Origin: Herbiconiux sp. SALV-R1
GTDB lineage: Bacteria > Actinomycetota > Actinomycetes > Actinomycetales > Microbacteriaceae
DNA length: 64,000 nucleotides
NCBI RefSeq assembly: GCF_013113715.1
Contig: NZ_CP053344.1
Span: 2,480,001 to 2,544,000 of the forward strand
Direction of reading: 5' to 3'
Of the stretch, positions 7,859 through 31,452 are shown piece after piece. Position numbers and translations under genes: made by a program. Each line of letters begins with the position of its first letter. Positions within the stretch are counted from its first letter, which is position 1. The notes beneath the pieces are model-generated. The model had not been told where the DNA came from and did no database searches. It was given only the letters and a program-made list of their open reading frames with translations.

Positions 7859-8821
7859 CTACCAGGCGTCCGCCGCTGGCTGCCGCCTCGGCGACCGCTC
7901 GAGCGTTCCCGCGAGGAGGAAGGCGACACCCGCGAGCACCGTCACGGCTGCGGCCGGGGCGCCGCTGCCGACCGGCGTGTCGTGCGACTGCGAGAGGTCG
8001 ATGAGCAGCACGTAGTCGACGAGCGGGAAGGCCAGCACCGCGGCCAGCGCCACACCGCCCCACGCCACCACTGCCGCCCCTCGCGCGACCGGGGCCGCGG
8101 GCGTCGCGGATGCGGCAGGCGGCCGACGCAGCCCGGTGGACGCGGCCGGCGCGGTGGGCGCGGCCGGCACGGAGGAGGCGGCGGGCGCAGTGGACGCTGC
8201 CGGAGCGGTGGACGCAGCCGGCGCGGCCGACGCGGCCGACGCGGTTAGCTCGTCCGGCGCAGCCGGCACGGAGCGCGCTGCGGGCGCGGGCCGTGCCGCG
8301 GGGGCGGCGGGCGCGGCATGCCGCGCTACGCGCACCGCAGCGCGCAGGGCCGCGACGATCGGCACGACGAACGCGAGCACGCTGAGCGCGAGCAGCATCA
8401 GCGGGGGCGGGTCGAGCACTCCGAGGGCGCCGTCGCTCGCGGCTGCGAGGAGCTGCGGCACCCCGGCGGCGAGCCACCCGGTCGCCGAGAGCACCGCGAG
8501 GAGCGCCCCGACCGTGTCATCGCGCAGCCACATGGCCCACAGCAGCCATAACGCCACGAGGAGGAGCGAGGCCAGACCGGCCAGCAGCACGGCCCCGGGA
8601 ATCACCTCGAAGGGTGCGGAGACCCAGAGGTAGTCGCGGGAATGGTCCTCCGCCAGCGCGCAGGTGTCGGCGGTGAGCCCATCGCCGATCGCGACCGTCT
8701 CCACCGGGCCGAAGCACGGCGCCCAGCGGATCGCCGCCGCCACGAGCTGCAGCACCCCCGCCACCACGAGCAGGAGCCCACCGAGGAGGGTCGTCGATCG
8801 GAGCGTCAGCCGCCTGGCCAT
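7859..8821 (-). CDS. Multi-pass membrane protein with Ala/Pro repeat loop, unknown function
   Basis: A 320-residue protein with about five or six hydrophobic helices: one at the N-terminus (LGGLLLVVAGVLQLVAAA), two around residues 75-125, one near 140-160, and two after residue 240. Between helices 4 and 5 is a long Ala/Pro/Ser/Thr segment built from PAAS-TAPAAS-type repeats (DNA about 8110-8310). Two Cys in the first outer loop (APCFG and DTCAL) could form a disulphide. I do not recognise the family. It is separated by 12 bp from the MFS gene upstream and may share its transcript. Confidence 0.7.
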   Translation of the reverse strand: MARRLTLRSTTLLGGLLLVVAGVLQLVAAAIRWAPCFGPVETVAIGDGLTADTCALAEDHSRDYLWVSAPFEVIPGAVLLAGLASLLLVALWLLWAMWLRDDTVGALLAVLSATGWLAAGVPQLLAAASDGALGVLDPPPLMLLALSVLAFVVPIVAALRAAVRVARHAAPAAPAARPAPAARSVPAAPDELTASAASAAPAASTAPAASTAPAASSVPAAPTAPAASTGLRRPPAASATPAAPVARGAAVVAWGGVALAAVLAFPLVDYVLLIDLSQSHDTPVGSGAPAAAVTVLAGVAFLLAGTLERSPRRQPAADAW

Positions 8822-8833
8822 GCCCCGACCTTC

Positions 8834-10258
8834 TCACTCCCGGTCGTCGGCCATCTGAACGACCGGTGACGAGTGCGCATCGCTCTGCCCGCGCATCCGT
8901 CGTTCCCGCCCGAGGGCAGGGAGGTAGAGCGCGGCGCCGACCATGCTCACGAGGCCCGCGGCCACGAACACCGGCCCGGTGCCGACGGCGTCGGCGAGCG
9001 GGGCGAGCGCGAGCAGCCCGAGGCTGTAGGCGCCGCCCGCGACCATCGAGTTGATCGAGAGCACGACGGCGCGGTTCTGCGGTCCGGCCTCGCGGTGCAG
9101 GAGGGTGGCGTGCATGGGACCTGCGGCACCGTGGGTGAGGTAAGCGAGCCAGAACGCGGCGACGAGGCCCAGCGGGCCCGCGACCAGCCCCATCACCACG
9201 ACGAAGGCGCCGTTCAGGATGCGCGCGGCGATCGCCGTCCAAGCCACTCCGACGCGGCGGGCGGCGAGACCGGCGAGCGCGGAACCCGCCGCGAAGAGCG
9301 CCCAGGCGGCTGCCGCAGCCGGGCCGAAGACCGCGCCGGCGGAGGCCTCGCTGCCGAGCATCCCGGCGAGGCTCACGGGGGTGAGCGTCTCGAAGGCGAT
9401 CATCGCGATGCTCCAGAACACCTCCACCAGCACGAGGGCACGGAGCACGGGTGAGGTGGCCAGCAGGCGCCCGCCCGCCGCCACCGAGCGGGGCACCTCG
9501 CGCACCCCGCGGCCCAGGGAGCGGAGGGCCGAGCGCGCGGTCGCCCGGCGGGCACCGGTGATGGCGTCGGCATTGCCGCCGGCGCCGTCGCCACCGCGCG
9601 TCGGCTCGGAGACGAGCAGCGCGATGAGCACCGCGTGGGCGGCGGTGAGCGTCGTCGCCACGAGGTACGGCAGCACGAGTGCCGATACGGATGCACCCCA
9701 CGGCGCCCACGCCACCAACCCGCCGCCGGCCAGCGCTCCCCCGGCGATCGCGACGCCGAGCACCGTCGCCGCACGGCTGAGCCCGCGTTCGACCGGGGCG
9801 GAGGGGTCGGCCGCGTGCAAGGAGTCGACGTACCAGGCCTCGAGCGGTCCTGAGTCGAGGGCACGGAAGACGCCCTGGCCGGCGAGCGCCACCGCGAACA
9901 TCCAGAACGAGTCGGCGACCAGGAACAGCGCGCTCGACAGCACCGCCACCGCGCCGGAGGCGACCAGCAGGGGGCGGCGACCCAGCGCATCCGCCAGCCC
10001 GCCCGTGGGCAGCTCGAGGGCGAGCACGACGAAACCCTGCACCGAGAGCAGCACCCCCACCTCGGCGAGGGAGAGCCCGCGCTCGAGGGGCAGCAGCACG
10101 GTGAGACCGAACACGAGGCCGACAGGCAACCAGCGCGTGGTGGTGAGCAGGAGGAACCGGCGCTCGACGCTGCGGGCCGAGAGGACGGCGCGCGACCGCG
10201 ACGGGCGTCGGGTGGTGTGCGAGCGGAGGCGGGCCATGTCGGTGTCAGGCCGTCGCAT
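8834..10258 (-). CDS. MFS transporter
   Basis: A 474-residue, 12-helix major facilitator protein. Motif A is visible as GGLADALGRRPLLVASG in the loop between helices 2 and 3, and both halves carry the expected helix pattern. The sequence resembles drug-efflux-like MFS proteins often encoded beside ArsR-type regulators. The ATG at 10258 overlaps the regulator's 3' end by 14 bp; the ATG at 10237 is an alternative, and neither has a clear Shine-Dalgarno site, which fits translational coupling. The substrate is unknown. Confidence 0.88.
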   Translation of the reverse strand: MRRPDTDMARLRSHTTRRPSRSRAVLSARSVERRFLLLTTTRWLPVGLVFGLTVLLPLERGLSLAEVGVLLSVQGFVVLALELPTGGLADALGRRPLLVASGAVAVLSSALFLVADSFWMFAVALAGQGVFRALDSGPLEAWYVDSLHAADPSAPVERGLSRAATVLGVAIAGGALAGGGLVAWAPWGASVSALVLPYLVATTLTAAHAVLIALLVSEPTRGGDGAGGNADAITGARRATARSALRSLGRGVREVPRSVAAGGRLLATSPVLRALVLVEVFWSIAMIAFETLTPVSLAGMLGSEASAGAVFGPAAAAAWALFAAGSALAGLAARRVGVAWTAIAARILNGAFVVVMGLVAGPLGLVAAFWLAYLTHGAAGPMHATLLHREAGPQNRAVVLSINSMVAGGAYSLGLLALAPLADAVGTGPVFVAAGLVSMVGAALYLPALGRERRMRGQSDAHSSPVVQMADDRE

Positions 10259-19812: not shown

Positions 19813-20895
19813 ATGGCCATCCCGAGCTCGCCAGACGCCTACGGCAGGGCGCGGCGCGACAAGCGCTTCCGCGAGGCACTGGTGCGGGCCTACGACGGCC
19901 GGCACGACGCCCTCGACGCGCTCTGGTGGCTCGGGCGCCCCGATCGGCCCGCTCCCGACGGCACGCCGTCTCCGCACGCCCGACTCGCCGAGCTCGAGGC
20001 GGCCGTCTACGGTCCGGATGCGCGACACGGCGACCCCGCGGCACCGGCGGCTCTCGAGGCGCTGCTGGCCGAGCTGGCCGCCGACCGGGCCGCGATCGAG
20101 CGGGCCGTGCGGGCGGCGGAGCGGGAGGTGGACGACGCGGCACAGCCCCTTGGGGGCTCAGGCGGCGGTGACTCCTCCGACCTCGCACGCGTCGACGGCC
20201 CCCTCGGCACCGCCGACCCCCTCCGCACCGGCGACCCTCTCGGCACCGACCCCCTCGGCGTCGACGACCTCGAGCCTGGCCCCACCGTCCTCGACCCGCG
20301 CCGCCCCCGCTCCCCCTCCGCCCTCACCCTCGCCGCGGTCGCCGCAGTCGCCCTCCTCGCGGGCGTCGCCGGCGGGATCGCCCTGGGCAGCGGGGCGCTC
20401 GGCGGCCCCTCCGCCGAGGGCGTCTCGGCGGGGTGGACAGGCAACTCCGAAGGCGGCTTCAACGGCCTCGCCCCGGGCGCCCAGGCCTCCCCGGGCGCCA
20501 CGGTCGACACCCCCGCGGCCCTGCAGATCTTCGACCGCGAGCAGGTGCCGAGCGACCTCCCCCCGGTGCTGCACTCACTGCGGCTGCGCGAGACGACCCT
20601 GCGGCCGCTCGGCCCGACCGCCACCGGCGCGCTCTACGCCGCACGCGACGTCGACGACCGGGTGTGCCTCGTGCACGTCGACACCCAGGGGTCGTACGCC
20701 GCCTCGTGCGTGTGGCAGACGGCCTTCCCCGCCGACGGCCTGCTGCTGCGGGTGTCGTCGCCGGTGCCGGCACCCGGCCCCGACACCGGGAGCCTCCCCT
20801 CCGGCGCGCAGATCTCCGACCTCGAGGTGCGCTGGATGCCCGACGGCACGCTCACCGGCCAGGAGAACCCGATGCAGCTCGACCCCGCCTCCTGA
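19813..20895 (+). CDS. Single-pass membrane protein, first gene of the T7SS-like locus
   Basis: A 360-residue protein of unknown family. Residues 1-110 are soluble, helical and Ala/Glu/Arg-rich (ALLAELAADRAAIERAVRAA). A linker with the near-repeats GPLGTADPLRTGDPLGTDPL follows, then one membrane helix at about residues 178-198 (LTLAAVAAVALLAGVAGGIA). The outer domain of about 150 residues has two Cys (DRVCLVHV, ASCVWQT) flanking beta strands. The topology suggests a cytoplasmic N-terminus and an extracytoplasmic sensor or scaffold. It runs into the kinase/ATPase genes on the same strand and may be part of that locus; the link is positional only. Confidence 0.7.
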   Translation: MAIPSSPDAYGRARRDKRFREALVRAYDGRHDALDALWWLGRPDRPAPDGTPSPHARLAELEAAVYGPDARHGDPAAPAALEALLAELAADRAAIERAVRAAEREVDDAAQPLGGSGGGDSSDLARVDGPLGTADPLRTGDPLGTDPLGVDDLEPGPTVLDPRRPRSPSALTLAAVAAVALLAGVAGGIALGSGALGGPSAEGVSAGWTGNSEGGFNGLAPGAQASPGATVDTPAALQIFDREQVPSDLPPVLHSLRLRETTLRPLGPTATGALYAARDVDDRVCLVHVDTQGSYAASCVWQTAFPADGLLLRVSSPVPAPGPDTGSLPSGAQISDLEVRWMPDGTLTGQENPMQLDPAS

Positions 20896-21001
20896 CGGGC
20901 GGCGCGCATCTCACGATTTGCCCCTCGACCGGGAGGGTCGCGACGGCTACGGTGATGATGTTCGTGCCCGTGACGCCGCCGACCAGAAGAGGTTCCCGCC
21001 G

Positions 21002-21652
21002 ATGACCCCGGCTCCTCCCCCTCCCGCGAGGCGATCGCGCGCGGGTGCCGTGGTGCACACCGTGATCAGGGCGGTTCTGGGCGCGACGCTCCTGGTGCTC
21101 CTCGTGCTCATCGCCCTGCGCTACGTCAGCGCCCCGTCGAGCACGGTCGCCGACCCGGTCGCCACCGAGACGGCGACGTCAGGGCCGGCGACGCCGTCAG
21201 CGACGCCCACACCCACCCCGACGCCCACACCGACGCCGACTCCGACTCTCCCCTCGGCGGGCGACGGCGGGGGCACCGGCGACGGTGGCAGCGGTGGCGG
21301 CACCGACGGCGGGGGCACCGGCGGCACGGCCGCCCCGGTGATCGAGTCGTTCACCTCCTCGGGACCTGTCGCCTGCTCGCCGCCCTCCGAGGCCCCCGAC
21401 GGGAACGTCGGCATCGCCCCCGCACCGGTCGTGAGCTTCAGCTGGACCAGCAGCGGCGGCGAGGAGGCCTGGTTCGGCATCAGCACCTCCGACGCCCAGG
21501 CCGCGCCCTTCAGCCAGGTGGGGCTGAACGGCTCCATCTCGCTCGACTTCCAGTGTTCGAACGCCATGGAGACCTACGCGGTGACCGTCGTCGGCCCCGG
21601 CGGCAAGACCTCGAAGACCGTCGACGTCGTGAACACGGGGTACGTCGGATGA
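21002..21652 (+). CDS. Membrane-anchored protein with Pro/Thr stalk and Ig-like domain
   Basis: A 216-residue protein: short cytoplasmic N-terminus, one helix at about residues 19-43 (VIRAVLGATLLVLLVLIALR), a Pro-Thr repeat (seven PT units) with a Gly-rich stretch as a stalk, and a beta-rich domain of about 100 residues (VVSFSWTSSGGEEAWF, YAVTVVGPGGKTSKTVDVVN) with two Cys that could form a disulphide. The fold looks immunoglobulin- or Fn3-like. It overlaps the kinase start by 4 bp (ATGA), so the two are coupled; it could serve as the kinase's missing outer domain. Confidence 0.78.
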   Translation: MTPAPPPPARRSRAGAVVHTVIRAVLGATLLVLLVLIALRYVSAPSSTVADPVATETATSGPATPSATPTPTPTPTPTPTPTLPSAGDGGGTGDGGSGGGTDGGGTGGTAAPVIESFTSSGPVACSPPSEAPDGNVGIAPAPVVSFSWTSSGGEEAWFGISTSDAQAAPFSQVGLNGSISLDFQCSNAMETYAVTVVGPGGKTSKTVDVVNTGYVG

Positions 21653-23301
21653 CGGGCCTGCCACCGCTGCTCGACGGCTTCGACTACCTCGACACCCTGG
21701 GGTCGGGCGGTTTCGCCGACGTGTTCCTCTACGAGCAGCACCTGCCCCGGCGACGCGTCGCCGTGAAGGTGCTGCACGACGATGCGGTCGACGACGCCGC
21801 TGTGGCACGGTTCCGCGATGAGGCGAACCTCATGGCGCAGCTGTCGTCGCATCCGTCGATCGTCACCATCCACCAGGCGGGGGTCACGGGCGACGGCCGC
21901 GCCTATCTCGTCATGGAGTACTGCGCACTGCCCGACTACGGCCGGCGGTTCCGGCAGCAGAGCATCCCGGTCGAGGAGGCGCTGGCCGTGGGGGTGCAGC
22001 TCGCGGGTGCCGTCGAGACCGCCCACCGCGCGGGCGTGCTGCACCGCGACATCAAGCCCGCCAACGTGCTCGTCACCGACTACCGCCGCCCCGCCCTCGC
22101 CGACTTCGGCATCGCCGGAACGGTCGGCACCTCCCACGCGCCCGACGCCTACTCGGTGCCCTGGGCGGCCCCCGAGACCTTCGGCGACGGGGCCGTGCTG
22201 CGCCCCACCGCCGACGTCTACTCCCTCGCCGCCACCGTGTACACGCTACTGGCGGGCCGGGCGCCGTTCGAGGTCGTGGGCGGCGACAACACCCCCGACG
22301 CGCTTCTCGCCCGGGCCGCCGCGGGAGCTCTGCCCCCCATCGGTCGAGCGGATGTTCCCCCCGCCCTGGAAGCGCTGCTCGCCACCGCGCTCGCCACGTC
22401 GCCGACCGCCCGCCACACCTCGGCACTGTCGTTCGGCCGCGCCCTGCAGCAGGCGCAGCAGCAGTTCGGCCTCCCGGTGACCGGGCTTGACGTACTCGAC
22501 GACCCCTTCGCCCGCGGCACCGGCACCCCGACCGCGGCGTTCCCCGCCACGACCGCGCCGACCGGGGCGGGCGCCGTGGGCGCGGGTGGCGCCGCCGCCG
22601 CGGGTGCTGCCACCGCAGGGAGCGCAGCGGGCAGTGCCGGCGGCGCTGCCGCCGCGGGTGCTGCCACCGCCGGGGCCGCAGCCGGCGTAGCGGGCGGCGC
22701 CGAGGGCACAGCGGGCGCTTCCGGCGGCGCCACCGCAGCCACCACCGCGGCCGCGACCACGCCGCTCCCGCCTGAGGCCGAGGCCGAGGCCCCGCCTCCC
22801 ACCCAGCTCTACCCGACCGCGCCGGCTGCGCCGACCGCCCCCACCACCGTCCTCCCCGCGGGTGCCGCAGGGGCGGCGACCGCGCCCGCAGCACCGACCG
22901 CCCCGACCGTCGCGTTCCCTCCCGCATCCGCCCCCTCCGGTGCTCCGGGCGCACCGGCATCCGCGACCGCTCCACCCACCGCCCCGACCGTGGCGTTCCC
23001 ACCCGCGGCAGCGCCCCCGGGTGCCCAAGGCACCCCGGGCACGCCAAGCACCCCGGGCGCGCCGGCGAGCGCCGAGACCCTGATGCGCTCGCACCCCGCA
23101 CCCGCCGCCTCCGCCCCTGCTGCCCGCGGCGGCGCTCCCCTCGAGTCGACGGTGCGGCGCCCCGCCACCGCCCCGGCCCAGGCGGCCCCGGTGTACTCCG
23201 CGCCCGAGCGCCGCAGGCCGCGCTGGCCGGGCGTGGTGCTCGACGTCGTGCTCGTGCTGGCGGTGGCCGGAGCCGCCGCCGTGCTCCTGATCGGGGGCTG
23301 A
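21649..23301 (+). CDS. Membrane-anchored Ser/Thr protein kinase (PknB-like)
   Basis: A 550-residue kinase. The catalytic domain spans about residues 8-270, with a glycine loop (GSGGFADVF), Lys40 in VAVKVLHD, catalytic HRDIKPANV (Asp134), DFG (about 152-154) and a P+1 region (YSVPWAAPE). All essential residues are present. A 250-residue Ala/Pro/Gly/Thr-rich linker follows, then one membrane helix at the extreme C-terminus (VLDVVLVLAVAGAAAVLLIG), leaving no outer domain. PASTA repeats are absent. It lies directly before the FHA-bearing secretion ATPase, whose phosphothreonine-binding domain is a natural partner. Confidence 0.92.
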   Translation: MTGLPPLLDGFDYLDTLGSGGFADVFLYEQHLPRRRVAVKVLHDDAVDDAAVARFRDEANLMAQLSSHPSIVTIHQAGVTGDGRAYLVMEYCALPDYGRRFRQQSIPVEEALAVGVQLAGAVETAHRAGVLHRDIKPANVLVTDYRRPALADFGIAGTVGTSHAPDAYSVPWAAPETFGDGAVLRPTADVYSLAATVYTLLAGRAPFEVVGGDNTPDALLARAAAGALPPIGRADVPPALEALLATALATSPTARHTSALSFGRALQQAQQQFGLPVTGLDVLDDPFARGTGTPTAAFPATTAPTGAGAVGAGGAAAAGAATAGSAAGSAGGAAAAGAATAGAAAGVAGGAEGTAGASGGATAATTAAATTPLPPEAEAEAPPPTQLYPTAPAAPTAPTTVLPAGAAGAATAPAAPTAPTVAFPPASAPSGAPGAPASATAPPTAPTVAFPPAAAPPGAQGTPGTPSTPGAPASAETLMRSHPAPAASAPAARGGAPLESTVRRPATAPAQAAPVYSAPERRRPRWPGVVLDVVLVLAVAGAAAVLLIGG

Positions 23302-23305
23302 GCGG

Positions 23306-26300
23306 GTGCGCCTGAAGTTCACGCTGCTGCGACGGAACGCCGGGCCCGCCAACATCGTCGTCACCACCGACGCCACCGCCTCGGTGGGCGACATCGCCGC
23401 GGCGATCGCGGCCGCCGACCCGGTCGAACCGACCGCGCCCGGCCCGGTCACCCTGGTCGTGTCGCCGCCCGCCTTCTCGACGGAGACCGTGCTCGTGCCG
23501 GGCACTCCGATCGGCGAGGCCGAGATCGGCTCGGGCTTCACGGTGCGCATCACCCGCCCCGCCGATCCCTCCGAGCTCAGCCGCGCCACCCCCGGGGCGA
23601 TCGCGCGGGTGCTCGCCGGGCCCGACGCCGGCCGCGAGTTCCCGCTGCCGTTCGGCGAGAGCACCATCGGGCGCGACCCGTCGTGCACCGTGGTGCTCGC
23701 CGACCCGCTGGCGTCGAAGGTGCACGCGAAGGTGATCGTCACCGACACCCTCGAGGTCGCCGACCTCAACTCGGCCAACGGCCTGCTCATCGACGGCGGC
23801 GTGGTCACCCGGGTCACCGTCGACGAGCACCAGAGCGTGGTGATCGGCGACACCGAGCTCGGCTTCCGGCGCCTCGACCGCGCCAGCGCTCCCCGCGTCG
23901 CCGAGCGCGGCGGCGTGCTGCCCGTCAACCGGGCGCCGCGGGTGGAGCAGCGCTACCCGGGCCGTTCCTTCCCGTCGCCCGCGGCACCGGCGGCGCCCGA
24001 GAAGAGCCGCTTCCCATGGATCTCGCTGGTCGCCCCCTTGGTCACCGGCGCGGCGATGTTCGCCCTGTTCCAGAGCCCCTTCGCCCTGCTGTTCGTGGCG
24101 CTCGCCCCGGTGCTCGTGCTCGGCAGCTACCTCGACAACGGTCTCACCCGCAGGCGCCGCCTCGACCAGGAGACCGCCCGCTTCGACGCCGAACTGCACG
24201 ACCTCACCGTGCAGCTCGCCGAGGAGGTGCCGCGCGAACGCGCCGTGCGGTCGGCCGAGACCCCGGCGACGTCCGAGATCGCCGCCGACGCCCTGCAACT
24301 CGGCCCGCTGCTCTGGACCCGCCGCGCCGAGCACTGGTCGTTCCTCGCCCTCCGCCTCGGCACCGGCACCCTGACCAGCCGCAACACCGTCGAACCCGGC
24401 CCCGACGACCCGCGGGCCGTGCCCGAGCTCCGCACCAGGGCGCGCGACGCCGTCGCACCGTTCGCGACCATCGCCGACGTGCCCCTGGTCGAGAGCGCCT
24501 ACTCGGCCGGCGCGATCGGCGTCGCGGGCGAGCGGGCCGCGACCGCCGACTACGTGCGCGGTCTGCTCGTGCAGGCCGCCGGGCTGCACTCCCCCGCCGA
24601 GGTGGCGATCGCCGCCCTCACCAGCGCCTCGTGGTCGCCCGAGTTCGCCTGGCTCGGCTGGCTGCCGCACAGCTCCTCCCCCCAGTCGCCGCTCGGGGCG
24701 CAGCTGCACCTCGCCGACAGCGCCGCGACGGGCCAGGCCCTGCTCGCCTCGCTCGAAGACCTCGTCGCCGCCCGCGCCTCCACCGAGACCTCCCGCCGCG
24801 GGGCGATCGACGAAGCGGATGCGGTGGTCGCCGAGGGCGCCAAAGTCGGCCTCAAGGGCGCAACGGCGCCCCCCGCCGGTCGGCGCGGGCCCGCGCTGCT
24901 GCTCGTCGTCACCGACGACGCCCCCGTCGACCGGGCACGACTGGTACAGCTCGCCGAACGGGCGGCCGACGCCGACGTGCACATCCTCTGGCTGGCGTCG
25001 ACCATCCGCGACCTGCCGGCCGTCTGCCGCAGCTGGGTCGACCTGAGCGGCGGGAGCGACGCGGCGACGGTCGGGCTGGTGCGCCTCGGCGATGCCGTCT
25101 CCCCCGTGCGCACCGAGCGCGTCGACCTGCCGCAGGCGACGGCGCTCGCCCGACGGCTCGCACCCCTGGTCGACTCCGGCGCGCGCGTCGCCGACTCGAG
25201 CGATCTTCCGCCCTCGGTGTCGTTCCTGGCGCTCGTCGGCGGTGAGTTCGGCGAGACGGCTGCCTCGGTCGTCGACCGCTGGCAGCAGAACGACTCGCTG
25301 CACGTATCCGCGACGACCCACGCCCACGCCGCTGCCCCGCCCGGCGCACCTGCCGCACCTGGCGCACCGACCGCCGCACCGGCCCGCCCGGCTCGGCGAG
25401 CATCCGGACTCCGCGCCCTCGTCGGGGTGGCCGGCCCCGACTCGATGCACCTCGACCTGCGCGCCCAGGGCCCGCACGCCCTCGTCGGCGGCACCACGGG
25501 CTCGGGTAAGTCGGAGTTCCTGCAGGCCTGGGTGCTCGGCATGGCGCTGGAGTACAGCCCCGACCGGGTCACGTTCCTCTTCGTCGACTACAAGGGCGGC
25601 TCGGCGTTCGCCGAGTGCGTGGCGCTGCCGCACTCCGTCGGGCTCGTCACCGACCTCAGCCCGCACCTCGTGCGCCGGGCGCTCACGAGCCTCCGCGCCG
25701 AGCTGCAGCACCGCGAGCGGCTGCTCGGTCGCAAGAAGGCCAAAGACCTCCTCGAGCTCGAGAAGCGCGGCGACCCGGAGTGCCCTCCGGCGCTCGTCAT
25801 CGTGATCGACGAGTTCGCCGCGCTCGCGACCGACGTTCCCGACTTCGTCGACGGTGTCGTCGACGTGGCCCAGCGGGGCAGGTCGCTCGGCATCCACCTC
25901 ATCATGGCCACGCAGCGACCGGCCGGTGTCATCAAAGACAATCTGCGCGCGAACACGAATCTCAGGGTCGCGCTGCGCATGGCCGACGAGCACGACTCCA
26001 CAGACGTCATCGGCGAGAAGAGCGCCGCCGCGTTCGACCCCTCGCTGCCGGGCCGCGCGATCGCGAAGACAGGGCCGGGCAAGGTCACCCCGTTCCAGAC
26101 CGCGTACGTCGGCGGGCACACCCGCTCCGAGCCGGAGCGCGCCGCGGTGAAGGTCGCCGAGCTGCGCTTCGGCGCCGAGATCGTGTGGGAGGCGAGAACG
26201 GGCGCCGTCGCACCGGCCGTCGAGGAGACGGGCCCGAACGACGAGGCGCGCATCGTCGCGACCATCGGCACCGCGGCGCTGGCGGCCGAGGTGCGGCCAC

Positions 26301-28021
26301 CGCGCCGGCCCTGGCTCGACGAGCTCGCCCCGGTGTACGAGCTGCGCGACCTCGTCGTCGCCGACCGCCGCGACCTGGGCGACGAGGCCGCGACCGGCGC
26401 TGCCGGCTTCCCGCTCGGCGTCTCCGACCTGCCCGAGACCCAGGAGCAGCGCACCGCCCGCTTCCTTCCCGACGTCGACGGCCACCTCGCCGTGTACGGC
26501 ACGGGCGGCTCGGGCAAGACCGTGCTGCTGCGCACCCTCGCCGCTGCGGCCGGGCTCACCTCCGGCAGCGACCCCACCGACGTGTACGCGCTCGACTTCG
26601 CCGGCGGTGGGCTCCGGATGCTCGAACGGCTCCCCCACGTCGGCTCCGTCATCGCGGGCGACGACACCGAACGGGTCGCCCGGCTGCTGCGCACGCTGGG
26701 CGAGCTGCTCGACCGGCGCGGCCGCGACTTCGCCGCCGTCGACGCGGGTTCGCTCGACGACTACCGCCGCATCGCCGGCGCGCCCGGCACCCCGCGGCTC
26801 CTCCTCCTCGTCGACGGATTCCCGGCGTTCCGCAGCGAGTGGGAGGCCGGAAGCGGCAGGTCGGCGCGATACTCCGAGTTCCTTCGCCTGCTGTCGGAGG
26901 GCAGGCGGGTCGGCGTGCACGTCGCGTTCACGGCCGACCGCCCCGGCAGCGTGCCCACCTCGGTGAGCTCGTCGGTGCCGCGGCGGGTGGTGCTGCGGCT
27001 CTCCGACGACTCCTCCTATCTCATGCTCGACGTGCCCGACGACGTGCTCGGGCAGGGCTCCCCCGCCGGCCGGGCGCTGCTCGACGGGCACGAGACGCAG
27101 ATCGCCGTGCTCGGCGCCACCCGCAACGTGCTCGAGCAGGCGGCAGCCGTCGAGCGGCTCGCCGACGAGCTGCGTGCGGCGGCCCGGACGAGCGGGCGCG
27201 CGGAGGCGGCAGCGATCCGCGCGCTGCCCACCGAGGTGCCGCTCGGCGACTTCCCCGAGCACGTCGCCTCGCGGCCGGTGCTCGGCATCTCCGATGACAC
27301 GCTGCAGCCGATCGGCTTCGAGCCGTCGGGAGCGATGCTCGTCGCCGGGCCTCCCGGCAGCGGCCGCACCTCGGCCCTGCTCACCCTGGCCCAGTCGCTC
27401 CGGCGGGCCGACCCGGGCATCCGGCTGCACTACCTCGGTCACCGGCGGTCGCCGCTCGGCGCCGCGCTCGACTGGGAGGGGCAGGCCACGGAGCCCGAGC
27501 GGGTCGCCGAGCTGGCCAGGGCCCTCGCCGCCGAGGTGACGGCCGCGCCGACGCCGGCCGCAGCATCCGGGACCTCCACCGACGGCTCCCCCACCGACGG
27601 CTCCTCCAACCCCGGTTCCTCCAACGACGGCTCCCCCACCGACGGCACCGCCCCCGCCCGCCGCATCGCCGTGCTGGTCGAGGGCATCGGCGACTTCCTC
27701 TCGACGCCGGCCGACGCGCCGATCGTCGAGCTCATCCGTGCGATCAAGCGCAGCGACCACCTGCTGATCGCCGAGGCCGAGTCGAGCGCCTGGATCTCCT
27801 CCTGGCCCCTGCTCGCCGAGATCAAGAACACCCGTCGCGGAATCCTGCTGCAGCCGGAGCCCGCCGAAGGAGAGAGCATCCTGCGCACCGTGCTGCCGCG
27901 GGTGGCCCGCTCCGAGTTCCCGCCCGGCCGCGGCTACTACGTCGCCGGCAAGGCCGTGCGGGTGCATCTGCCGCTGCCGGCGGCCACCACCGCATCCCCC
28001 ACCGCTCCATCCACTGCTTAG
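23306..28021 (+). CDS. FHA-FtsK/SpoIIIE secretion ATPase, EssC/EccC type
   Basis: A 1571-residue motor of a type VII-like secretion system. An N-terminal beta-rich region (1-90) is followed by an FHA domain (about 100-192) with GR at 122-123, SKVH at 137-140 and NG at 158-159. Two membrane helices lie at about 238-275. Three FtsK-like ATPase domains follow: D1 with GGTTGSGKSE near 729, the FVDYKGGSAF motif and Walker B VIVIDEF near 831; D2 with GTGGSGKT near 1064; D3 with GPPGSGRT near 1348, where the Walker Lys is Arg. One chain of this layout resembles Firmicutes EssC more than the split actinobacterial EccCa/EccCb. GTG start at 23306, 4 bp after the kinase gene. Confidence 0.93.
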   Translation: MRLKFTLLRRNAGPANIVVTTDATASVGDIAAAIAAADPVEPTAPGPVTLVVSPPAFSTETVLVPGTPIGEAEIGSGFTVRITRPADPSELSRATPGAIARVLAGPDAGREFPLPFGESTIGRDPSCTVVLADPLASKVHAKVIVTDTLEVADLNSANGLLIDGGVVTRVTVDEHQSVVIGDTELGFRRLDRASAPRVAERGGVLPVNRAPRVEQRYPGRSFPSPAAPAAPEKSRFPWISLVAPLVTGAAMFALFQSPFALLFVALAPVLVLGSYLDNGLTRRRRLDQETARFDAELHDLTVQLAEEVPRERAVRSAETPATSEIAADALQLGPLLWTRRAEHWSFLALRLGTGTLTSRNTVEPGPDDPRAVPELRTRARDAVAPFATIADVPLVESAYSAGAIGVAGERAATADYVRGLLVQAAGLHSPAEVAIAALTSASWSPEFAWLGWLPHSSSPQSPLGAQLHLADSAATGQALLASLEDLVAARASTETSRRGAIDEADAVVAEGAKVGLKGATAPPAGRRGPALLLVVTDDAPVDRARLVQLAERAADADVHILWLASTIRDLPAVCRSWVDLSGGSDAATVGLVRLGDAVSPVRTERVDLPQATALARRLAPLVDSGARVADSSDLPPSVSFLALVGGEFGETAASVVDRWQQNDSLHVSATTHAHAAAPPGAPAAPGAPTAAPARPARRASGLRALVGVAGPDSMHLDLRAQGPHALVGGTTGSGKSEFLQAWVLGMALEYSPDRVTFLFVDYKGGSAFAECVALPHSVGLVTDLSPHLVRRALTSLRAELQHRERLLGRKKAKDLLELEKRGDPECPPALVIVIDEFAALATDVPDFVDGVVDVAQRGRSLGIHLIMATQRPAGVIKDNLRANTNLRVALRMADEHDSTDVIGEKSAAAFDPSLPGRAIAKTGPGKVTPFQTAYVGGHTRSEPERAAVKVAELRFGAEIVWEARTGAVAPAVEETGPNDEARIVATIGTAALAAEVRPPRRPWLDELAPVYELRDLVVADRRDLGDEAATGAAGFPLGVSDLPETQEQRTARFLPDVDGHLAVYGTGGSGKTVLLRTLAAAAGLTSGSDPTDVYALDFAGGGLRMLERLPHVGSVIAGDDTERVARLLRTLGELLDRRGRDFAAVDAGSLDDYRRIAGAPGTPRLLLLVDGFPAFRSEWEAGSGRSARYSEFLRLLSEGRRVGVHVAFTADRPGSVPTSVSSSVPRRVVLRLSDDSSYLMLDVPDDVLGQGSPAGRALLDGHETQIAVLGATRNVLEQAAAVERLADELRAAARTSGRAEAAAIRALPTEVPLGDFPEHVASRPVLGISDDTLQPIGFEPSGAMLVAGPPGSGRTSALLTLAQSLRRADPGIRLHYLGHRRSPLGAALDWEGQATEPERVAELARALAAEVTAAPTPAAASGTSTDGSPTDGSSNPGSSNDGSPTDGTAPARRIAVLVEGIGDFLSTPADAPIVELIRAIKRSDHLLIAEAESSAWISSWPLLAEIKNTRRGILLQPEPAEGESILRTVLPRVARSEFPPGRGYYVAGKAVRVHLPLPAATTASPTAPSTA

Positions 28022-28032
28022 GAGAAAACACC

Positions 28033-28332
28033 ATGGCCAACCTCAACGTCACCTACGAGGAGATGACCGAAGCCGCCGGGCGGCTCGACACCGGTCGCGA
28101 CCAGATGACCACGACTCTCACCGACCTGCGGCGGCTGATCGACCAGCTCGTCGCCGACGGGTTCCAGACCCAGATGGCCTCGGGCGCCTTCCACGAGACC
28201 TATCAGAAGTTCACCACGGGCACCACGCAGGCCATCGAGGGGCTGCAGGGCCTGTCGCAGTTCCTGCGGTCGGCGGCCGAGGCGATGCAGAAGACCGACG
28301 AAGAGCTCGCCAAAGCGATCAGGCAGGACTGA
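28033..28332 (+). CDS. WXG100-family secreted protein (EsxA/B-like)
   Basis: A 99-residue helical hairpin of WXG100 size. The turn reads ADGFQTQMASGAFHETY, with Phe in place of the Trp of the WXG motif, a known variant. Helix 1 (YEEMTEAAGRLDTGRDQM) and helix 2 (ALTDLRR-like and GLQGLSQFLRSAAEAM) carry the expected hydrophobic heptads. A C-terminal YxxxD/E signal is not evident. It starts 11 bp after the EssC-like ATPase gene, with an AGGAG site. It is probably exported as a dimer, with itself or with the next protein. Confidence 0.9.
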   Translation: MANLNVTYEEMTEAAGRLDTGRDQMTTTLTDLRRLIDQLVADGFQTQMASGAFHETYQKFTTGTTQAIEGLQGLSQFLRSAAEAMQKTDEELAKAIRQD

Positions 28333-28625
28333 TGGCCGATCTGCTCGTCGACACGGGCCTGCTGCAGGAGCTCGACAGCGCCCTGAAGCTCATCGTCGAC
28401 ACCCTCGACGCCGCGGGCGGCATGAGCCGCTCGACGGCGAGCGCGTGCGGCGACGGGGAGCTCGCGGGGGTGCTGATCGACTTCGCCGACGACTGGGAAG
28501 ACACCCGGGAAGACATGCTCGAGGCGGTGCGGTCGATCAGCGACGCCGTGCACCTCGTCTCCGACGGCTTCGACAAGCTCGACAGCGAGCTCGTGCGCAC
28601 CCTGGCGGGGTTGGCGAATGGCTGA
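28332..28625 (+). CDS. Small helical WXG100-size protein
   Basis: A 97-residue helical protein of the size and position of a second WXG100 partner. It lacks WXG; the central region reads IDFADDWEDTREDMLEAVRS, and a DxWxxxxxDM pattern takes the place of the turn. Helices on both sides are amphipathic. It overlaps the previous stop by 1 bp and the next start by 8 bp, so all three are coupled. Likely a heterodimer partner or chaperone for the large protein that follows. Confidence 0.8.
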   Translation: MADLLVDTGLLQELDSALKLIVDTLDAAGGMSRSTASACGDGELAGVLIDFADDWEDTREDMLEAVRSISDAVHLVSDGFDKLDSELVRTLAGLANG

Positions 28626-30219
28626 GCTCGGCCCGCTGCCGGGCGACCCCGACGTCGTGCTGCGCGACGCCACGCAGTACCTGCGCACCGCAGAGGCGAT
28701 CGCGCAGGCCGCCGAGCAGCTGCGGCAGCTCTCGGGCGACGGCTTCCGCAGCCACGCGGTGTCGGCGCTGGTCTCGTCGGCCGGAGACGCGGCCTCGTCG
28801 ATCACGCAGGCGCACGCACGCTACGACGAGGCCTCCCAGGCGCTGCTCGAGTACGTCAGGCCCATGCGCGACGCGCACGACAGGGCTCGGATGCTCACCG
28901 CAGCCAGCCACGACCTCACCTACCGCGCCGACGAGGTGCGGGCCCGCTTCGTCGAGGCCGACCAGCAGGCGCAGCTGCCCGGACCCGAGCAGCCCGCCGC
29001 CCTCGCCCGGGCGGAGCAGCTGCGCGCCGAGTGGGACCAGCTGCAGCGCGAGCTCTCGCAGGCCGAGACGGAGTGGAACGCGGCCCGCGACCAGCTGAGG
29101 CATGCGGCGTCGGTGGCGGCGGCGCGCATCCATCGCGGCAACGAGTTCGGCGACCTGAACGACAGCTTCTGGGACGACCTCGGCGACCTGTTCGACATCG
29201 TGCAACTGGTGGCGAACATCCTGTCGGTGGTGCTCAAGATCGTCTCGCTCGTGCTCACCGTGCTCGCCGTGGTGTTCGCCGTGCTCGCCGTGGTGATGCC
29301 GTTGTTCGCGGCGGTCGCTGCGGCGCTGTTCGGCTACGCGCAGCTGGTGAACATCGCCATCGCGGTGCTCGCGCTGCTGCAGTTCGCGCTGAACGGGTTC
29401 CACCTGCTCGACCTGGTGGTGGCCGGGCTCGCCGTGCTGGCGGCGTTCGGCGGGGCGGCCCTCGGCGGGGCGCTCGGGGCTGCGGCGAAGTCGGCGGCGG
29501 CCGGGGCGACCCGCATCGTGGGCGAGGCGGCGAGCTCGGCGATCGGCGAGATCGCGAAGCAGGCCGTGGCGAAGGGCATCGAGGCGGTCACCGACACGGT
29601 GGTCGACGGGGTGCTGTCGCTCGGCGGGAGCGAGGCGCGGTCGATCTACGACTCGCTGAACCCGCTCGCGGGAGACTTCCTCGATGCGACCTTCGGCTCG
29701 GGTGTCGACTCGTTCACCTCGACCATGGAGGGTCTCGGCGAGAAGGTCGGCGCCGACTTCGCCGAGGGCATCGACGCGAGCGGACTTGGCGCGGCCATCA
29801 CGGCGGCAGCCGATTTCGGTCGCCCCGCCGCTGCGGCGCTCGGCACCGCGTTCGACTCGGTCTACACCACGGGCTCGAGCATCGCCGACGCCGTCGGGCG
29901 GGCGGCGAGCAGCGTGCAGCAGACGCTCGACCAGGCTGCGCGCGACGCCCTCGCGCCCCTCGCGGGGAGCGGGTTCGAGCACGTCGCCGACCGGCTGCAG
30001 CACGATCTCGGCAGCGTGCTGGGCGGGCCCGACGTCAGCGACAAGGTGGGCAACCTGGTCAGCGGAGCGCTCGGCGACGTCATCGGCGGAGTGCCCGGCG
30101 GCGATCAGCTCGCCCAGGCGGCCGGCGACGGTTTCGGGGGCCTCGCGCAGCGTCTGCACGACGCGGCGGTCGACCCCAAGCTCGCCGCTGTCGCGACGGG
30201 GGGTGGTGGGCGTGGTTGA
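28618..30219 (+). CDS. Putative large T7SS substrate, helical and hydrophobic
   Basis: A 533-residue protein. Residues 1-180 are long helices in LXG/WXG style (AIAQAAEQLRQLSGDGFRSH, QLQRELSQAETEWNAARDQL). Residues about 195-290 are strongly hydrophobic (VLKIVSLVLTVLAVVFAVLA, then AVLAAFGGAALGGALGAAA), as in many type VII effectors and toxins. Residues 300-533 are Ala/Gly/Asp-rich and helical, with no toxin fold, nuclease or ADP-ribosyltransferase motif that I recognise. There is no Sec signal. It may be an export substrate, or a membrane component replacing missing Ecc subunits. Confidence 0.75.
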   Translation: MAELGPLPGDPDVVLRDATQYLRTAEAIAQAAEQLRQLSGDGFRSHAVSALVSSAGDAASSITQAHARYDEASQALLEYVRPMRDAHDRARMLTAASHDLTYRADEVRARFVEADQQAQLPGPEQPAALARAEQLRAEWDQLQRELSQAETEWNAARDQLRHAASVAAARIHRGNEFGDLNDSFWDDLGDLFDIVQLVANILSVVLKIVSLVLTVLAVVFAVLAVVMPLFAAVAAALFGYAQLVNIAIAVLALLQFALNGFHLLDLVVAGLAVLAAFGGAALGGALGAAAKSAAAGATRIVGEAASSAIGEIAKQAVAKGIEAVTDTVVDGVLSLGGSEARSIYDSLNPLAGDFLDATFGSGVDSFTSTMEGLGEKVGADFAEGIDASGLGAAITAAADFGRPAAAALGTAFDSVYTTGSSIADAVGRAASSVQQTLDQAARDALAPLAGSGFEHVADRLQHDLGSVLGGPDVSDKVGNLVSGALGDVIGGVPGGDQLAQAAGDGFGGLAQRLHDAAVDPKLAAVATGGGGRG

Positions 30220-30760
30220 GTTCCGCTACAGCCTCGGCCTCCCCACCGGTTGGCACGAGGTACCCGCGGGTGAGCTCGCAGACGACTCGGCGACGGATGC
30301 GCCGCTCGCGCGGGCGCGCCGGCTCGTCTCTGCGGAGGGTCGGCCGGGGCGGAGGTACTTCGTGTACCTCGGCGACGGCGAGCCGACCGGGGCGACGGTG
30401 AGGGCGTGGGCGTTCCTCGAGCTCCTGCCGCGCGGCGGCGTGACGATCGACGAGTTCGCGGCGGCGGCCTCGGCCCCGCGGGTCGTCTCGGACGAGGCGA
30501 CGGTGTTCCGGCGGCAGGCGGAGCGGGTCGAGCTGGCGGGCCTGCCGTGCGTGGTGGTGCACGACGTCGTGGAACCGGGGGGAGCATCCGGTGGCCGGGC
30601 GCTTCACCAGCGGCTCGTGGTGACGTACTTCCCCGGCGACCCCGCGGTCGTCGTGAGGTTCGAGGTGTCGAGCCCCGATCTGCTCGTGTTCGACGACTTC
30701 GTGCGCTCCGGCGTCGAGTTCGCGAACACGCTGCGTCTTCACGAGGAGGCCCCCGCATGA
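30212..30760 (+). CDS. T7SS-locus accessory protein A (182 aa)
   Basis: A soluble protein starting near FRYSLGLPTGWHEVP, with several beta strands and a C-terminal half reading LVVTYFPGDPAVVVRFEV then LLVFDDFVRSGVEFANTL. The layout (LPxGWxxVP opening, antiparallel sheet, final helix) recalls Mog1/PsbP-like folds such as mycobacterial LpqN, but by eye only. It shares this layout with the next gene. GTG codons at 30203, 30206 and 30212 are all possible starts; 30212 is used. It overlaps the preceding gene and is coupled to the next by ATGA. Confidence 0.7.
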   Translation: MVEFRYSLGLPTGWHEVPAGELADDSATDAPLARARRLVSAEGRPGRRYFVYLGDGEPTGATVRAWAFLELLPRGGVTIDEFAAAASAPRVVSDEATVFRRQAERVELAGLPCVVVHDVVEPGGASGGRALHQRLVVTYFPGDPAVVVRFEVSSPDLLVFDDFVRSGVEFANTLRLHEEAPA

Positions 30761-31452
30761 GCGACGAGTCGGCAGCGAGGGCGCGACGCCCCCGTGACGG
30801 CGGTTTCGACTTCGCACTCCCGGGTGACTGGTGGGCCGTGCCGGTCGCGCGCGCCGAGGAGACCGAGCGCGCGGTCACCCGACTGGTGCGCGAGACGGTC
30901 GGACGCCGCGACGAAGACGCCACGGCTCGCGCCGAGCTGCGCAGCCGCTTCCTCTTCGCCGCCGATCGCGCCCGGGCGGCCGGGGCCACCCAACTGCACC
31001 TGTGCCGCGAGGTGATGCCGGGGGTGCCGCTGCCGGCGACGCTCACGGTGTACCACCCGCGGCTGACACTGCGTCGACTGGGCCCGACGCCCGCCGAGGC
31101 GCTGCGGGCGGTGCTGGGCACCATCCGCGAGCCGGAGCCGGAGCCGGAGCCCGAGCCCGTCGTGGGGGCGTCGGCCGACGTCGCCCCCGACACCGACCTC
31201 GAGTTCCCCTGCGGCCCGGCAGTGCGCCGCGTGCGCGAGGTCGCCGCCCCCGCCGACTCCCCCGAGGCCGGCATCACCACCCTGGAGGTGGACTACTACC
31301 TCGCCACGCCGGGCGACCGCGTGCTCCTGCTCTCCTTCGCCTGCGGACTCCCCACCCTCGCCCCCCAGCTCACCGAACTCTTCGACCTCGTGGTCGCCAC
31401 CGTGTCCTGTGTACCGGCACCGGCAAGGCCGTCGGCCACGCCCGCATCCTGA
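30757..31452 (+). CDS. T7SS-locus accessory protein B (231 aa)
   Basis: Probably a distant paralogue of the protein before it: it opens with FDFALPGDWWAVPV and ends with VDYYLATPGDRVLLLSFACG then LTELFDLVVATV, matching the same strand-helix order. In the middle is an EPEPEPEPEP run. No signal peptide or membrane segment is seen. It is the last gene of the tightly coupled series beginning with the kinase. A chaperone or recognition role for secreted proteins is a guess from position. Confidence 0.68.
   Translation: MSDESAARARRPRDGGFDFALPGDWWAVPVARAEETERAVTRLVRETVGRRDEDATARAELRSRFLFAADRARAAGATQLHLCREVMPGVPLPATLTVYHPRLTLRRLGPTPAEALRAVLGTIREPEPEPEPEPVVGASADVAPDTDLEFPCGPAVRRVREVAAPADSPEAGITTLEVDYYLATPGDRVLLLSFACGLPTLAPQLTELFDLVVATVSCVPAPARPSATPAS

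Follow-up and report, generated by a model that had tools for sequence, protein, structure and literature searches.

Type VII secretion systems (T7SSs) that pair a Ser/Thr kinase with an FHA-bearing ATPase were described in 2024 by gene neighbourhood, with control by phosphorylation raised only as a possibility (Garrett, Higginson, Palmer 2024, PMC11217815). The variants T7SSc-j are described there, several of them with kinases and FHA-ATPases, and for T7SSd a ubiquitin-like gene is given as not found. YukC/EssB, the pseudokinase of the Bacillus subtilis T7SSb, binds the FHA region of YukB (PMC9600267), and in the PpkA/Fha threonine phosphorylation pathway of the type VI secretion system (T6SS), a kinase generates phosphothreonine, an FHA protein reads it and secretion is activated (PMC3953482). 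Here we analyzed a window, the whole stretch of 64,000 nucleotides from Herbiconiux sp. SALV-R1 (contig NZ_CP053344.1, positions 2,480,001 to 2,544,000), and within it a locus of nine open reading frames on the + strand, g1 to g9 (window positions 19813-31452, boundaries corrected). Judged by its gene content, this locus is a T7SS of neither T7SSa nor T7SSb type and a T7SSd-like variant; its export motor is probably activated by a membrane kinase by way of a phosphorylated threonine tag.

The classification rests on the partners of the motor. EccD carries a YukD domain; no YukD (PF08817) was found in the genome at E 0.1, where a B. subtilis control was positive. EssB/YukC (PF10140) gave no match in the genome, and the only EccB match reached 16.4 bits against a cut-off of 27, with none of 14 control genomes positive. 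Because the genome shows no YukD/EccD/EsaB, no EssB and no above-cut-off EccB, the locus is placed in neither T7SSa nor T7SSb. EccE, MycP, EssA and EsaA, searched for at the locus only, were not found among g1-g9. A preliminary description of this DNA had recognized no classical Ecc or Ess partners here, which held both at the locus and in these genome-wide searches. Its view that the gene mix is unlike the classical ESX and Ess sets stands as far as the lacking partners go, although kinase/FHA-ATPase systems had already been described as T7SSc-j (PMC11217815).

Like T7SSd, the locus is actinobacterial, has no YukD gene and combines a membrane Ser/Thr kinase and a WXG100 protein with an EssC-type ATPase whose FHA domain has a conserved phosphothreonine site (PMC11217815). 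In contrast to T7SSd, it lacks TsdI and a clear TsdH, its kinase has no outer domain and is preceded by a separate gene (g2), it has the extra genes g6-g9, and a ubiquitin-like fold is predicted inside the ATPase. TsdH consists of one transmembrane segment and a short cytoplasmic region, whereas g2 has one transmembrane-like segment but a conserved C-terminal domain. No TsdI was seen among g1-g9 or the neighbors called between 15 and 34 kb, and since this feature of T7SSd fails at the locus we use the term "T7SSd-like". T7SSe resembles the locus in its two WXG100-size small proteins, its kinase and the phosphothreonine-competent FHA domain of its ATPase, but is reported only in Bacillota, and its TseB (a ubiquitin-like gene), TseF phosphatase, TseI, TseJ and TseK were not seen at the window locus (PMC11217815). 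The T7SSb (Ess/Yuk) systems share a single-chain EssC with N-terminal FHA and a kinase-fold partner with one transmembrane segment; however, that partner is the EssB pseudokinase and the EssC N-terminus has two FHA domains without phosphothreonine-binding residues (PMC4925161), while EssB and EsaB are absent from the window's genome and EssA and EsaA from the locus. The likeness to T7SSa (ESX) is confined to the EccC-related ATPase and the WXG100 protein; the genome shows neither an above-cut-off EccB nor an EccD/YukD domain. The main text of PMC11217815 mentions none of Micrococcales, Cellulomonas, Microbacter, Herbiconiux and Arthrobacter.

With moderate confidence, we take the whole to be best explained as a reduced T7SSd-like T7SS in which a tag on the kinase gates the motor and g7 is a substrate helped by g9. 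The motor would be g4, whose N-terminus would join a ubiquitin-like domain to a phosphothreonine-competent FHA domain. Anchored in the membrane, g3 would phosphorylate Thr501 in its own juxtamembrane linker, and the phosphorylated tag would dock on the g4 FHA domain and recruit or switch on the motor; an active kinase would thereby do the job of the EssB pseudokinase in T7SSb. The core secreted WXG100 protein would be g5, and the locus would have a substrate of its own in g7, whose helical N-terminal domain would pair with g6. Until export, g9 (perhaps also g8) would cover the hydrophobic segments of this substrate, much as T6SS effectors are covered by Eag chaperones, and other clusters of the genome may supply envelope parts in trans. 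Gene content, domains, conservation, motif enrichment and the g9 fold are computed results; phosphorylation, docking, gating, the secretion of g5 and g7, chaperoning and the sharing of parts are inferred from them. A wider reading that requires all of its parts together (a phosphothreonine-gated T7SS with a kinase replacing EssB, an in-chain ubiquitin-like part, Mog1/PsbP-fold chaperones convergent with Eag and an envelope part from an ATPase-less cluster) is offered tentatively. In its working the locus would resemble the PpkA/Fha pathway (PMC3953482), but it is not a T6SS and its FHA domain is built into the motor itself.

The ATPase g4 (23306-28021, 1571 aa) matched TIGR03928 (EssC) at 5.9e-145 and 484.7 bits (curated cut-off 778.4), TIGR03924 at 4.4e-96 and TIGR03925 at 5e-94, all below the curated equivalog cut-offs; it scores higher against EssC than against EccCa or EccCb, and its relatives in the Protein Data Bank (PDB) include EccC5 and YukB. 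Pfam recognized an FHA domain and two FtsK_SpoIIIE stretches, to which a third P-loop is added, in agreement with the FHA-bearing EssC-type ATPase proposed earlier. The ATPase domains D1-D3 (25403-28018, bounds approximate) each have a Walker A motif, and by our placement Walker B is clear only in D1. The FHA domain (aa 98-190; 23597-23875) gave Foldseek matches to GarA/OdhI at about 1e-9 to 5e-9. Its phosphothreonine-binding residues G122, R123, S137, H140 and N158 are identical in all 40 filtered ATPases, and 8 of a further 13 (distant or filtered out) also keep the site, which brings the total to 48/53, a count that excludes the ATPases of loci L081 and L129. Because these binding residues are conserved, the phosphothreonine reader is intact in g4, unlike in T7SSb (PMC4925161).

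The kinase g3 (21649-23301, 550 aa) lies 4 nt upstream of g4. It matched PF00069 at 1.5e-35 with its P-loop, Lys, HRD and DFG motifs intact, which bears out the earlier call of a complete Ser/Thr kinase, and it ends in a transmembrane-like segment (526-550 of 550) with no outer domain. The linkers of such kinases vary freely save for one short pattern, [DE]xT[VILMR]xR, which was defined after inspection of 13 discovery kinases and occurs in 12 of them; in g3 it reads ESTVRR (aa 499-504; 23143-23160), a candidate phosphothreonine docking motif centered on Thr501 just before the transmembrane-like segment. In new loci, the motif was present in 3/3 kinases from clusters with close relatives of the g4-type ATPase (one of them about 8 kb from the ATPase and on the opposite strand) and in 0/8 kinases from four loci of another family in which no such ATPase was detected; seven further new loci with the ATPase showed no kinase. 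A second hold-out was drawn from a search with FHA2, a marker of fuller clusters, using the best 30 of 124 matching genomes; after removal of two kinases already seen, the one of the window's own genome and two in unreadable frames, 25 remained. The motif occurred in 20 of these unseen kinases, where shuffled linkers would give 0.61, and the 3527 linker residues contained 45 copies. The variant with Ser at the Thr position occurred 0 times among 261 Ser and that with Ala 0 times among 613 Ala; all 15 other letters tried there gave 7 occurrences together, and genes outside the clusters held 80 copies of the motif in 410,027 residues.

FHA domains read phosphothreonine and not phosphoserine. A Thr-only pattern is the expected trace of an FHA reader, whereas a Ser/Thr kinase alone would not be expected to leave one. 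First seen in one group of kinases and then borne out in a second, the motif points to an exact residue, Thr501, as the candidate site. Kinase gating through FHA and phosphothreonine, which the preliminary description had put forward as a plausible model, is thus supported by the conserved FHA residues and the Thr-only linker motif, though not proven. The motif was also found in PP2C-like tails in 7/9 clusters examined (J129 and L016 without), where Pfam was run solely on the two tails from the window's own genome. The g4 FHA domain itself also contains the pattern (ESTIGR, in the IGR strand typical of the fold), as does g8 at one place; neither was counted as a site.

Ahead of the FHA domain, g4 is predicted to carry the ubiquitin-like part reported missing from T7SSd (about aa 1-85; 23306-23560). 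In the AlphaFold 2 model of residues 1-215 (mean pLDDT 82, pTM 0.49), residues 1-83 follow the order strand-strand-helix-strand-strand-3/10-strand, as in ubiquitin (beta-grasp). A profile of 35 ATPase N-termini placed ubiquitin-fold proteins first in the PDB at E 0.06-0.08, which is not significant, and single N-termini matched UBXL in 5/35 (best E 0.0037) and YukD in 2/35 (best E 0.01). Against this assignment stand the later of the 15 PDB rows for the profile, which are unrelated to the ubiquitin fold, and the nine other families matched by the N-termini besides UBXL and YukD, several of them unrelated; none of these 11 families was matched by the N-terminus of the window's own g4. Among the matches listed (the first 50), Foldseek of the model returned titles of FHA or FHA-like chains, so the assignment rests on topology together with the weak sequence matches. 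A second FHA domain at this position was considered and rejected, as the helix stands in the ubiquitin order, in contrast to the all-beta FHA1 of T7SSb (PMC4925161). A ubiquitin-like fold within the ATPase would explain the missing EsaB-like gene in T7SSd. No report of such a fused domain, of the linker motif or of a Mog1/Eag-fold T7SS protein was found in print among open-licence PMC papers.

To compare gene order, genes were called in 40 fetched loci of the window's family, in L006 and in 11 named loci. The nearest named ATPase relatives are from Herbiconiux (69-70%), the Corynebacterium-like bacterium B27 (67%) and Subtercola (65%), followed by Cellulomonas, two actinomycete metagenome-assembled genomes (MAGs) and a Propionibacteriaceae MAG (44-49%). 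The order g4-g9 is kept in L007-L010 (Herbiconiux, Subtercola, isolate B27; 36-90% identity) and partly in Cellulomonas, and the series ATPase-g5-g6-g7-g8-g9 is recurrent; on the compared sequences, this conserved order is more than chance. The comparison across relatives suggested in the preliminary description thus bears out g4-g9 as a unit, whereas no relatives of g1 were found. In the ATPase tree, the window, L008-L010 and L051 group as one clade together with L007, whose upstream part is cut off; in all five members readable at this point (window, L008, L009, L010, L051), g2 and the kinase immediately precede the ATPase. The kinases of L053, L054, L071, L082 and L084 are found downstream instead, in the company of PP2C-like and FHA genes, and in three joined stretches (J053, J054, J084) this downstream set is followed by a protein of 1744-1765 aa. 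A plasmid search for annotated relatives returned 64 records, one of which covered at least 80% of the query and was unannotated.

Directly beside the ATPase, g5 (28033-28332, 99 aa) is an EsxA/TsxA-like WXG100 protein (PF06013, 8.3e-16; TIGR03930, 48.7 bits, above the cut-off of 44.85) and is predicted to be exported. By size and position, g6 (28332-28625, 97 aa) would be a Lap-like partner, but it has no Pfam family save one match at E 0.21, so that of the two WXG100-size proteins noted earlier only g5 has a useful family match. The g6 family (A5) was matched in 36/150 genomes of the window's family (23/85 genera), with no match in the other two sampled genomes of the window's genus, and g6 adjoins g7 also away from the ATPase. 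The candidate substrate g7 (28618-30219, 533 aa) has a helical N-terminal part, a hydrophobic stretch at 191-290 and transmembrane-like segments. Among ten g7 relatives, PF21725 (T7SS_signal) was matched above the cut-off by four, below it by four and not at all by two, and the C-termini are variable; on sequence, the family has T7SS signal domains and swappable ends. GxSxG C-termini were seen in 5/45 g7 copies (L073, L074, L075, L079, L086), all five followed by a lipoprotein-like gene, while among the other 40 the same rule found one such follower, which looks like a transmembrane protein. A hydrolase-ended g7 followed by a lipoprotein-like gene has the layout of effector/immunity pairs, which these five probably are; the best PDB match of these C-termini was at E 0.0085, and their Pfam matches were below cut-off. 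The g7 C-termini of L052, L055 and L056 looked toxin-like by eye, but a structure search identified none (best E 0.15) and they were left unnamed. In the family, g9 is often succeeded by a membrane protein (about 260-290 aa) and another copy of the g5 WXG100 gene (L053, L054, L071 and others), neither of which was seen after the window locus.

The strongest alternative, in our view somewhat unlikely, is that g7 belongs to the machinery in the membrane as, say, a channel or docking subunit, with g6, g8 and g9 aiding its assembly. Consistent with this, g7 is conserved over its full length in the window clade (56-68%), with a long hydrophobic stretch and no toxin-like end. This missing end and the lack of a PF21725 match in the window's own g7 count against g7 as cargo. 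Placement points both ways, as in 23 of the 45 copies a same-strand ATPase is found no more than three genes upstream and in 22 it is not, a rule that misfiles a few ATPase neighbors (L063, with a split ATPase frame, and L062, with the ATPase on the opposite strand). The signal matches in four of ten relatives, the copies away from the ATPase and the five hydrolase-like ends argue for the substrate reading, and g7 is kept as a candidate substrate of the locus.

Less probable is that other kinases, either housekeeping ones or those of a second and a third cluster of the same genome (described below), phosphorylate the threonines read by the FHA domain, with g3 regulating something else or being redundant. 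Several observations lean this way or weigh against gating by g3. At least 13 of 44 fetched loci with a g4-type ATPase show a kinase, many loci ending at 20 kb, and none was seen in the other 31, yet most of these ATPases keep the FHA site; the kinase is therefore not what such loci are built around, as had been proposed for this one. The FHA site is lost in L017, L072, L083, L089 and L090 (5/53, four of them the most distant). The motif is missing from L016 in the discovery set, from the one kinase beside a distant ATPase (L137, 0/1) and, in its strict form, from 5/25 hold-out linkers, which hold looser forms by an after-the-fact remark. Furthermore, the motif kinases are mutually related and from related genera, which makes the counts non-independent, and the hold-out kinases' clusters contain other FHA proteins, one of which may be the reader of the tag. 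The window's genome also encodes five kinases besides g3 and that of the second cluster, one of the five being T7SSd-type, and the second cluster's kinase carries the motif. However, g3 keeps its place immediately before g4 in 5/5 readable window-clade loci and has the strict motif, in contrast to 0/5 of those other kinases. Four of these have no link to such clusters in what was examined, and the fifth, from the ATPase-less third cluster, has DRTVLA, the pattern minus its final Arg.

Returning to the proposed helpers of g7, g8 (30215-30760, 181 aa, GTG start; the gene caller preferred 30362) is conserved in L007-L010 and has no Pfam family. Its neighbor g9 (30757-31452, 231 aa) was modeled with high confidence by AlphaFold 2 (pLDDT 88, pTM 0.83), and Foldseek placed the model with a Jonesia protein (3lyd, 1e-5), LpqN (2e-4) and DcrB (6e-4) in a group of 12 chains of the same fold at 1e-5 to 8e-4; MTC28, PsbP, Mog1 and Tsi3 are further matches. 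Taking the Mog1, PsbP, LpqN and Eag-type chains as one fold, which we partly presume, the g9 model belongs to the Mog1/PsbP/LpqN fold, to which the T6SS Eag chaperones are more distant matches. With these it has in common the overall fold and a place beside a candidate substrate with transmembrane segments, although the match to SciW (6xrr) is weak (E 0.017-0.05, TM-score 0.44-0.52 of target), 3lyd, MTC28, LpqN, PsbP and DcrB being closer, which counts against a chaperone of Eag type. Pfam LpqN or DUF1795 gave no match in 36 g9 members, and comparison of g9 with the PDB by sequence gave nothing useful. The two accessory proteins had been described as related, which profile comparison did not bear out (hhalign 8%), and neither is a relative of a 163-aa protein of the second cluster by the same approach. 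Some g9 relatives (L052:6560-7708, L055:12332-13456, L056:10656-11735) are extended at the N-terminus by a domain of about 160 aa and adjoin g7 copies with another type of C-terminus; the extended g9 of L056, the one scanned, had no Pfam match.

That g8 and g9 are immunity proteins against g7 and not chaperones seems quite improbable. The T6SS immunity protein Tsi3 (3wa5) does share the g9 fold at E 0.0067, better than SciW; on the other hand, g9 follows g7 within four genes in 16/23 ATPase-close copies and 15/22 others, and it stays near g7 while the g7 C-terminus and the intervening gene change, as expected of a general helper. We thus retain g9 as a candidate chaperone or adaptor of g7.

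The second cluster (C1:4,073,652-4,099,308; L006:5653-20000 and L091:1-11309) is a fuller T7SSd-like set with its own ATPase (46-51% identical). It includes a kinase with an outer domain, PP2C (PF13672), FHA proteins, MoxR, DUF58, an LpqN-family protein above the cut-off located after the WXG100 genes, and a 2025-aa protein in which ten bacterial Ig and four fn3 stretches were recognized and which agrees with TsdI as described in PMC11217815. A 341-aa protein of this cluster (L006:6737-7762) joins a WXG100 part to a long glycine-rich end. The third cluster (about C1:1,253,676-1,265,999; L183:7677-19999) has FHA, PP2C, MoxR and DUF58 genes, a T7SSd-type kinase (53% to that of the second cluster) and a TsdI-like 2001-aa protein with six bacterial Ig stretches; no EssC-type ATPase was seen in the 20 kb read there. 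The genome search found two EssC-type ATPases; of three further matches, one covers the tail end of the second ATPase, one is an FtsK-type frame and one an FHA frame. Having no envelope and phosphatase parts itself, the window locus could use those of the other clusters in trans, and the third cluster may serve the window ATPase in this way or be a separate system. That the locus is a decaying duplicate of the fuller T7SSd-like cluster, and no longer a working machine, would fit its lack of the TsdI, phosphatase and second FHA protein found in both other clusters, but is very improbable given the open frames and intact motifs, the retention of the reduced set in Herbiconiux, Subtercola and L051, and the ATPase-less cluster in the genome that has those missing parts. 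Since FHA2, the marker of the fuller cluster, was matched in 124/297 genomes of the order searched (50/95 genera), an answer for this locus would apply widely.

The remaining genes lie upstream. The preliminary description had nine genes on one strand, most of them close-packed; all nine are present, and the packing, with overlaps or gaps of at most 11 nt, extends over g2-g9. It had also counted two anchored outer proteins, and transmembrane-like segments are indeed present in both. In g1 (19813-20895, 360 aa) hydropathy places one at 167-197, but with the 106 nt gap to g2 and the absence of relatives in the compared loci, g1 was left out of the system and is probably not part of it. In g2 (21002-21652, 216 aa), which is conserved in L008, L009, L010 and L051, a transmembrane-like segment (15-50) and a Thr/Pro linker precede the conserved C-terminal domain, which looks Ig-like by eye, with no Pfam support. 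The reading of g2 as a detached form of the outer domain of the second cluster's kinase, which it resembles by eye, was rejected (hhalign 0.7%). A minus-strand frame of 1964 aa at 22073-27967, antisense to g3 and g4, is most likely a reading-frame artefact of high GC content. Elsewhere in the window, positions 8001-10000 show a strong AT skew (0.333) relative to the rest.

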